From positions 1 through 22,912 of IMG/VR virus record IMGVR_UViG_3300046001_011637: a stretch of 22,912 bases of DNA. One strand, written 5' to 3'. Numbering within the stretch: position 1 is the stretch's first letter; every line of letters begins with the position of its first letter. Under the pieces are notes generated by a model, which did not search any database, was not told where the DNA came from, and was given only the letters and a program-made list of their open reading frames with translations. Of the stretch, positions 1 to 1,824 are shown piece after piece. The position numbers and the translations under genes are program-made. The stretch comes from a virus.

Positions 1-654
1 CTACGCCCAAGGCCGCACCTTTGGCATCGCCGCCGTTGCCTCAACCTCCCGGAGCATCCGGCCCGCAACAAGGCCATCCCGGACCCAGTCCAGCGATTGC
101 CACCAATCCTCATAGCCGCGACGGGCAGAGGCGATCTGCTCGGGGTGTGGTCGCCAGGTGACCGGGCAGGCCAGCACCTCGACCGTGCGCCACTTGCCGC
201 GGGACAGAACGCGCTCCGTGCCGACCACGATCGTGGACGCCCTCTCGCCATGCTGGTTGCTCTTGGTCTCGACCGGGACGCAGCGCGGCACCGCGCCTGG
301 TAGCCAGTCCGGCGTCATCCCTGCGCGCGCAAGTTCGGCCACGTAGATCGCCATGCGTTTGCCGCCCAAGCTGTCAGGCATCCCGGCGAGTGTGGCGGCA
401 ACCACCTCTGCATCCGCATGGGTGTAACTGCCCATCTTGTGCTGTCCGCCGTCGACCTTGCAGCCCAGCGCCCCGCGCTGCAGCAAAACGTATTCCATGC
501 CAAATCCGAAGCCTTCCTCCGACACGTCTATTGGCAAGGGCAGTTCCAACTGCGCCTTTTCCACCCGGAACGCCCATTCAAGAATGGCCTGCACGCCCAG
601 CGCGCGTTTCACCTTCGTGCCGCCTGCGCGCCCGATCCGTCCCTGCATGCTCAT
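1..654 (-). CDS. Conserved phage hypothetical protein, 217 aa
   Basis: I cannot assign a function. The protein is soluble, with no signal peptide or membrane segment, and is rich in Trp near its C-terminus (for example WWQSLDWVRDG). The overall pattern (RIGRAGGTKVKRALGVQAI near the start, GFGFGMEYVLLQR in the middle) matches what I remember as a conserved hypothetical next to replication and methylase genes in Rhodobacterales prophages; that memory is unverified. Its ATG (652-654) overlaps the TGA (651-653) of the alternative frame running through the methyltransferase gene, the same four-base coupling seen at the other junctions of this operon. The stop codon lies exactly at the window edge, so the gene is complete, but the operon probably continues to the left. 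A late regulatory or antitermination role is possible; nothing in the sequence proves it. Confidence 0.75.
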   Translation of the reverse strand: MSMQGRIGRAGGTKVKRALGVQAILEWAFRVEKAQLELPLPIDVSEEGFGFGMEYVLLQRGALGCKVDGGQHKMGSYTHADAEVVAATLAGMPDSLGGKRMAIYVAELARAGMTPDWLPGAVPRCVPVETKSNQHGERASTIVVGTERVLSRGKWRTVEVLACPVTWRPHPEQIASARRGYEDWWQSLDWVRDGLVAGRMLREVEATAAMPKVRPWA

Positions 655-1325
655 GGCAGCATTCCTTCAAAGAGATTCATCTGCGCTGGGCCTTCCGGCC
701 CATCCGTTGGCCGCCAGACCCAAGGGCCGGAGGCCATGGGCAGCTGAGAGAGTGCGCCACGCATGCGCTGCTGCCAGAGGGTGAACTCCGTTGCCGAGCA
801 GGCGCAGAGCGCGTGACCGATGGGCCAACCCATCAACCATCCGACGAACAGCGGGTTCAGCCGCCGCCGCGCTCGGGCTTTCAGGACCCTGCGCGACACG
901 ACCCGCCCATGCGATGCAATCATAAAAGCCCACAGCGGGCGCGAGATCGGGGCGTGATGCGAGGGTCGCAGCCCAAGCGGCGTGATCGCCGGGGCCGGGC
1001 GGGTGAAGCCCTGTTCGGCCCGGTAGTGCAGGATATCCATTCGGCTCTTGCCATCGGTGCGGATCACACTGGCCGGGCTGCTGCCCTTCCAATTCTGCGC
1101 TGCCGGTGTCGGCCATTGCGCGGCTTGGGCTGGCAGGGGTGGCATCCCGCCCGAGCCATAGCTCTGGCCGGGCCCACCTTTCGCGCCATCCGTGGCCTTC
1201 GGCGTCGACCAATTGATGATGCCCAGCGCCAATGCTTCCGCCTTGCGGGTGAAATCGCTGTTTCCCGCCGGGTTGTAGCGATCGGTGCCGGGATGCAGGC
1301 TCATCGGTGTGGGCCAGGATGAAGA
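651..1325 (-). CDS. Putative overlapping coding frame (+1) inside the methyltransferase gene
   Basis: The +1 frame relative to the methyltransferase is open from 651 to 1820. Its upstream half reads like an antisense-type shadow rich in Ser/Pro. From about 1325 downstream it becomes protein-like: SSSWPTPMS, NWSTPKATDGAKGG, QWPTPAAQNWKGSS, then LNPLFVGWLMGWPIG and a C-terminus ending MNLFEGMLP. WPTP repeats followed by LNPxFVxWLMGxP are, from memory, characteristic of the C-terminal half of another group of phage methylase-related proteins. Its TGA (651-653) overlaps the ATG of the next gene, whereas the methyltransferase frame stops 12 bases short. Expression would need an internal start or a +1 frameshift, and I identify neither with confidence. 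The alternative is a long chance-open frame in GC-rich DNA. The coordinates given cover only the protein-like part. Confidence 0.45.
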   Translation of the reverse strand, partial: SSSWPTPMSLHPGTDRYNPAGNSDFTRKAEALALGIINWSTPKATDGAKGGPGQSYGSGGMPPLPAQAAQWPTPAAQNWKGSSPASVIRTDGKSRMDILHYRAEQGFTRPAPAITPLGLRPSHHAPISRPLWAFMIASHGRVVSRRVLKARARRRLNPLFVGWLMGWPIGHALCACSATEFTLWQQRMRGALSQLPMASGPWVWRPTDGPEGPAQMNLFEGMLP

Positions 1326-1824
1326 TCCGGAGCCGCTGGTGCGGCGCGCCGACTTCTGCCGCACTGAACAAGCCCGCCGCAGGCGTGTAGCCCATGCGCC
1401 AAAGTTCTCGCAGGACGGTTTCAAGGCCGAGGGTGACGTGACCGGCGACGTTTTCGAGAAAGACCCATTCAGGCTGGCATTCGCCGATGACCCGGGCGAC
1501 GTCAGGCCAAAGGTGGCGGGGATCGTCTGCGCCACCGCGCTTTCCGGCGGCGCTGAAGGGCTGGCAGGGGTACCCGGCGAGGACGATATCGAAGGCGCCA
1601 CGAAATGGTCGGGCATCGAAGCTGCGGAGATCATCCCATATCGGCGCCGGGGCGAAGTATCCCGCGCGCTGGGCGGCGATGAGGACGGCGCGGGGGTAAG
1701 TTTCCCACTCGACAAAGGCGCGGGTGTGATAGCCGGGTTCGGCGAGCATGAGGCCCAGATCCAAGCCTCCGCCACCTGCGCAGAGGGACAATCCGTGCTG
1801 GGGACGTGACACCATGCCATTCAC
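667..1824 (-). CDS. Phage-type DNA (cytosine-5) methyltransferase
   Basis: This enzyme transfers a methyl group from S-adenosylmethionine to C5 of cytosine in DNA; in a phage it would protect the genome against restriction. The C5-methylase motifs appear in order: motif I LCAGGGGLDLG (about residues 14-24), motif IV GYPCQPFSAAGKR with catalytic Cys87, motif VI ENVAGH (124-129), motif VIII QRLRIF (163-168), and motif X RLLGNGVHPL (341-350). Its 385 aa is normal for the family. The start is GTG at 1822-1824, overlapping the TGA of the upstream HTH gene. There is no neighbouring restriction endonuclease, so it is probably a solitary phage methylase. The region between motifs VIII and X, where the target-recognition domain lies, is low in recognisable structure and is also open in the +1 frame (separate entry). 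The target sequence cannot be predicted. Confidence 0.93.
   Translation of the reverse strand: MNGMVSRPQHGLSLCAGGGGLDLGLMLAEPGYHTRAFVEWETYPRAVLIAAQRAGYFAPAPIWDDLRSFDARPFRGAFDIVLAGYPCQPFSAAGKRGGADDPRHLWPDVARVIGECQPEWVFLENVAGHVTLGLETVLRELWRMGYTPAAGLFSAAEVGAPHQRLRIFILAHTDEPASRHRSLQPGGKQRFHPQGGSIGAGHHQLVDAEGHGWRERWARPELWLGRDATPASPSRAMADTGSAELEGQQPGQCDPHRWQEPNGYPALPGRTGLHPPGPGDHAAWAATLASRPDLAPAVGFYDCIAWAGRVAQGPESPSAAAAEPAVRRMVDGLAHRSRALRLLGNGVHPLAAAHAWRTLSAAHGLRPLGLAANGWAGRPSADESL

Follow-up and report, generated by a model that had tools for sequence, protein, structure and literature searches.

Overlapping reading frames of a phage gene probably encode two halves of one C5 cytosine DNA methyltransferase

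Introduction

What does a second long reading frame encode when it lies almost completely across a methyltransferase gene? The window analysed here, a stretch of 22,912 nucleotides from the viral record IMGVR_UViG_3300046001_011637, carries on its minus strand a C5 cytosine methyltransferase frame (A) and, in the +1 frame of the same DNA, a second open frame of similar length (B). An earlier note, made from the letters alone, drew attention to this overlap and proposed dual coding, a +1 frameshift product, or a shared ancestry in which two protein groups are frame variants of one locus; it did not notice that B resembles the small domain missing from A. The two-frame observation is confirmed, and dual coding is the best reading of the overlap. 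Beyond this, it is likely, judging from sequence comparisons, that A and B are the two structural halves of a single C5 cytosine DNA methyltransferase, which are encoded in overlapping frames of the same DNA and would assemble into the active enzyme.

Organization of the locus

The A frame is intact to motif X (LLGNGVHPL), as described earlier, and the B frame is open for its full 389 codons from an ATG that lies exactly in +1 of A (Table 1); the strings quoted from it, WPTPMS, WSTPKAT, WPTPAAQNWKGS and LNPLFVGWLMGWPIG, all occur in the translation. The description of the gene borders is equally accurate: the TGA of B overlaps the ATG of the next gene, A terminates 12 bases ahead of that ATG, and the remaining junctions of the operon are four-base overlaps (1821-1824 and 2843-2846). 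The interval of 651-1325 assigned to the overlap is correct for the 3′ half but falls short in extent, since B starts at 1820.

The pair is flanked by a replication-initiation O-like gene upstream and an unknown phage gene downstream; an excisionase-like gene and an integrase follow at a greater distance. The closest loci among bacterial genomes are mostly from Rhodobacterales, and the window is therefore probably a prophage of that group.

Table 1. Coordinates of frames A and B, their signals and their zones of constraint in the window (wA, wB: substitutions counted by their effect in each frame)
Feature	Coordinates	Strand	Assignment	Evidence
Frame A	667..1824	(-)	Proposed large (catalytic) subunit, C5 cytosine methyltransferase, motifs I-VIII + X, 385 aa, GTG start	PF00145 1e-31 over residues 12-184; AF2 model vs M.HhaI large domain Z 22.6
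Frame B	651..1820	(-)	+1 overlapping gene, 389 aa, ATG start; proposed small subunit with recognition region + motif IX	phrog_27243 2e-119, phrog_1008 7e-18; kept in +1 frame of related loci
Shared start GTGAATGGC	1816..1824	(-)	A from GTG, B from ATG 4 bases on; intervening TGA closes upstream gene	GTGAATGGC or near variants in most of 67 loci; TGA terminates upstream ORF in 66/67
A codons 31-140	1405..1734	(-)	Frame-A constraint; B open, little constrained (presumed linker)	wA 0.13-0.14, wB 0.75-0.94 (codons 21-140); phase profile
A codons 141-170 (to motif VIII)	1315..1404	(-)	Both frames constrained	wA 0.17, wB 0.31 (codons 141-175)
B helix, residues 140-157	1350-1403	(-)		pLDDT ~91 (AF2)
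A codons 171-270	1015..1314	(-)	Frame-B constraint (WPTP-type repeats); predicted disordered linker in A	wA 1.19, wB 0.20 (codons 176-275); switch at codon 171; A residues 176-268 pLDDT <50
A codons 271-360	745..1014	(-)	Both frames constrained	Codons 276-320 wA 0.39, wB 0.44; codons 321-360 0.10 in both
B putative motif IX LNPLFVGWLMGWPIG, B residues 321-335	816..860	(-)		Invariant core in 71 B sequences; weak alignment to canonical motif IX, P 0.014-0.032
A motif X LGNGVHP, A residues 343-349	778..798	(-)		G344 + N345 invariant in 86 A sequences; helix 349-362 pLDDT ~96
A codons 361-385	670..744	(-)	Mainly frame-B constraint (B C-terminal tail)	wA 1.54, wB 0.44
ATGA, B stop over start of next gene	651..654	(-)		ATGA or GTGA at B stop in 67/68 loci; next ORF at least 80 codons in 63/67

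Selection on the two frames

When the synonymous codons of A are shuffled, 3.9 stops are expected in frame B, whereas none is seen (P = 0.003). Across 65 diverse loci, 246 B-frame stops are expected against 0 seen, but this count is biased, as the ORFs are bounded by their own stops, and tests of selection were relied on instead. For these, variation by codon phase was compared in 59 and then in 120 distinct related sequences, and substitutions were counted by their effect in each frame in 29 independent pairs from the family of the window (Table 1). Over codons 31-140 the wobble base of A varies fastest, as in an ordinary A gene; over codons 171-270 the fastest position is the first codon position of A, which is the wobble position of B, and the wobble base of A is almost frozen. 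In the 120 related genes, the switch of constraint from A to B falls at codon 171. The wobble base of A is also slow at codons 1-20, which lie over the N-terminus of B. The same pattern is seen when 19 independent pairs are taken from other families of phages: constraint acts on A only before the B ORF, on B only between motifs VIII and IX, on both frames from motif IX to the stop of B, and on A only past that stop.

A and B are both conserved as proteins. Two outcomes that the earlier note had taken to count against its proposal, a +1 translation lacking database relatives and neutral substitution in that frame, have turned out otherwise: B matches established protein families, and it is constrained across homologous loci.

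Start and stop signals of frame B

In the family of the window, A and B start within four bases of each other (GTGAATG); in other phages, the start of B is an ATG within A that is preceded by a Shine-Dalgarno sequence. Among the internal B ATGs at no more than 58% GC, at least five complementary Shine-Dalgarno bases are present in 31 of 65, compared with 5.5% of control ATGs of the same genes (Fisher 2e-19, a value inflated by relatedness between loci). The coupled starts and stops, the slow A wobble bases at codons 1-20 and the internal Shine-Dalgarno sequences thus favour independent initiation of B over frameshifting.

Frame A: a catalytic half apparently lacking the small domain

A is recognizable as a C5 methyltransferase by its PF00145 match and by motifs I, IV (PCQ), VI (ENV) and VIII; residues G17/G19/G20, P86 C87 Q88, E124 N125 and R164/R166 are invariant in 86 sequences. 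The small domain, which comprises the recognition region and motif IX, is not found in the A chain: PF00145 ends at residue 184, and residues 176-268 are disordered and, as A sequence, unconstrained. An AF2 model built with the 86 sequences consists of a confident domain (1-175) and a confident motif X helix, joined by this low-confidence segment. Since the model aligns with M.HhaI over ~200 of 327 residues at both chain ends, the small domain appears to be missing from A. The likeness extends over the large domain including its C-terminal helix; the monomeric M.HhaI, unlike the A model, bears a small domain on its single chain. Canonical methyltransferases of 15 host genomes cover the length of PF00145, and the many partial matches there end near position 167.

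Frame B: a candidate for the missing half

No match to B was obtained in Pfam or NCBIfam. By profile, B belongs to phrog_1008 and phrog_27243 (Table 1), and the B proteins of ten further loci match phrog_1008; the annotations of the two families, 'DNA methyltransferase' or unknown function, do not mention an overlap with a methyltransferase gene. A conserved B segment, RRLNPLFVGWLMGWP, aligns unguided, if weakly, with the canonical motif IX, RRLTPRECARLMGYD. Relatives from other phages provide stronger evidence on the identity of B than this direct alignment. In the mycobacteriophage ShiLan, gp70 combines motifs I-VIII, B-type LPTP repeats, the segment EWMMGWPAGW and motif X in one chain; in Catdawg, gp6 carries motifs I-VIII and gp5, one frame on, the B-type half and motif X. 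The B profile matches the C-terminal half of ShiLan gp70 in the motif IX region (7e-15) and Catdawg gp5 (3e-11). Because a B-type half occurs in both, we take the C-terminal half of B to correspond to that of a C5 methyltransferase.

Modelled alone, B reached a mean pLDDT of 56, Foldseek found no fold match for the model, and a search of PDB sequences with the B profile returned nothing convincing. The assignment of B as small domain thus rests on sequence, and the low-confidence model and the Foldseek blank are no evidence for a new fold.

Distribution of the pair

A search with the C-terminal half of B yielded 78 viral loci, in which A and B are both recognizable on the same DNA, B is always in frame A+1, and both frames are open in most. 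The relation extends as far as two Synechococcus phages at 30-35% identity (L001, L002 1414-2553), where the same matched stretch is annotated as A (methyltransferase) in one record and as B (hypothetical protein) in the other. The loci were also chosen by each frame separately. Scanning by the B peptide NPxFVEWLMGFPxGW alone gave 65 contigs, in nearly all of which motif X of A follows in the frame one base back. Motif X of A, located past the B motif, was used by itself for a second scan, from which 78 loci were analysed; they span 33-71% GC, 63 of them carry the strict B motif, and most others a variant. In 52 of these diverse loci, picked by motif X alone, the wobble bases of the A block EPxVGRVAHGVP are ~98-100% the base required by B at most positions; for example, an alanine is encoded by GCT in 100%, compared with a background of 17%. 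The way in which loci were selected thus does not account for the two-frame pattern. A search of plasmids gave two weak places.

Some loci appear to lack B. In one of them (L185, 6737-8050) the EPxVGRVAHGVP block occurs twice in the A frame; the second copy has lost the B motif, but the first, at another place in the gene, retains it intact. Another, L196, has motif X in the frame of B itself; L171 and L154 are likewise apparent B-negatives. Further irregularities are a shortened A (L030, L055) and a B that is interrupted or frame-shifted near its end (L037, L058, L073), either of which may reflect sequencing error or decay. In L059 (882-3611) the A frame lies within an open frame of 910 codons and the open B frame has only 238 codons. 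Five loci (L003, L006, L015, L031, L071) possess a second methyltransferase-like stretch, ~30% identical, within ~1-2.5 kb downstream of the A/B pair. Motif X lies in the B frame in Catdawg (L455 804-1755), Inventum (L457 1083-2172) and L196 (4342-5598), and everything is in one chain in ShiLan gp70 (L456 1011-2180); hence, the split point differs between lineages.

Comparison with known split methyltransferases

Two C5 methyltransferases formed by two polypeptides offer themselves for comparison. In M.EcoHK31I (YGGCCR), motifs I-VIII and X reside on the large subunit and motif IX on the small one, and the predicted recognition region was placed on the large subunit (PMC3404938). M.AquI (CYCGRG) is one enzyme on two polypeptides that are split past motif VIII (PMC3404938). 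The window resembles the former in that A has motifs I-VIII and X, and the putative motif IX is found on a separate small polypeptide, B. The genes of M.EcoHK31I reportedly overlap in different frames, which is also the case for A and B, where the +1 arrangement is conserved. The recognition region, in contrast to its place in M.EcoHK31I, appears in B, as A is unconstrained over codons 176-275 and B is not. A further difference is that pairs of the window type are spread over many phages; the comparison drawn here is one of motif and gene layout. M.AquI differs from the window, where the large subunit keeps motif X and the two genes overlap over nearly their whole length; Catdawg gp6/gp5, whose second ORF bears both motif IX and motif X, is closer to M.AquI. 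ShiLan gp70 joins A-type motifs I-VIII and a B-type C-terminal half with motif X, but it is a single chain, and its B-type half does not contain two overlapping frames. The ShiLan domain has been described as an HNH endonuclease concealed in another frame of insertions in phage methylases (PMC11855218). It likewise involves overlapping frames within the gene of a phage methylase, but it is an inserted mobile endonuclease rather than a methylase half.

By analogy, A and B most likely are split methyltransferase subunits that work like M.EcoHK31I (alpha I-VIII+X, beta IX). A would be the large catalytic subunit, contributing the AdoMet site, the catalytic PCQ, ENV, motif VIII and the motif X helix, with the middle of its gene read as a disordered linker. 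B, starting 4 bases after A, would be the small subunit, in which a short conserved N-terminus and a linker are followed by the WPTP-type repeats and the putative motif IX, which would form the target-recognising small domain. Assembly of both would generate a single active enzyme, probably an orphan methyltransferase protecting or marking the phage DNA. We infer the expression of B, its assembly with A, and the activity, target site and biological role of the enzyme.

Alternative explanations

It is improbable that the ribosome reads A to motif VIII and then slips into B by a programmed +1 frameshift, producing a fused chain of motifs I-VIII and the B half. The switch of constraint directly past motif VIII and the single-chain relatives such as ShiLan gp70 would fit such a product. 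A frameshift, however, should restrict constraint on the second frame to the part past the slip and leave this frame without a start of its own. B departs from this pattern: constraint acts on it ahead of the switch as well, near codons 1-20 and 141-170, and it possesses a conserved start, which elsewhere is an internal ATG with a Shine-Dalgarno sequence. Motif X is essential in C5 methyltransferases of this kind, and the fused product would lose it, yet motif X of A is conserved. Among the explanations offered in the earlier note, dual coding and protein groups as frame variants of one locus thus hold, and the frameshift product is not supported, given the constraint on B before the switch and its own conserved start.

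That B arose by overprinting on A and acts independently of the methyltransferase reaction, for instance as a regulator or an anti-restriction factor, would agree with its own start and with the blank in Pfam and NCBIfam. Such independence is nevertheless unlikely: ShiLan gp70 joins the C-terminal half of B to motifs I-VIII and X in one chain, A appears to lack a small domain and B has a motif IX-like block, and B hardly ever occurs except on an A gene. Hardly credible is the notion that B is a mere by-product of A that looks conserved through the conservation of A. Long open +1 frames are indeed common in GC-rich genes, but the wobble positions of B vary and its other positions do not, in a region where A is unconstrained; B is open and conserved at 33-50% GC, and the codon choice of A tracks the needs of B. 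A single methyltransferase encoded as two overlapping halves remains the preferred reading.

Implications

The nesting as such has already been seen in single genomes, since B is entered as a nested gene, once under 'g55 internal gene', in annotations of Paenibacillus larvae phages. A literature search, which left subscription papers mostly outside its reach, found no description or explanation of the A/B overlap; the breadth of the arrangement in phages and the proposed role of phrog_1008 and phrog_27243 as small subunit appear to be new. An abundant phage protein family for which Pfam and NCBIfam hold no model is thereby given a testable role. The two domains of one enzyme would be encoded over each other in a reciprocal manner, the linker of one over the domain of the other.

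We lean towards a more general view, in which the gene of most phages with this type of motif X specifies two proteins, with the catalytic half in one frame and the recognition half in another; motif X would have changed sides in some lineages, and whoever annotates or clones a methyltransferase ORF on its own would capture just half an enzyme. Should this be true, the single-gene annotation of many phage methyltransferases is wrong, and codon optimisation of A alone would destroy B, so that assays of activity or specificity could fail for this reason.
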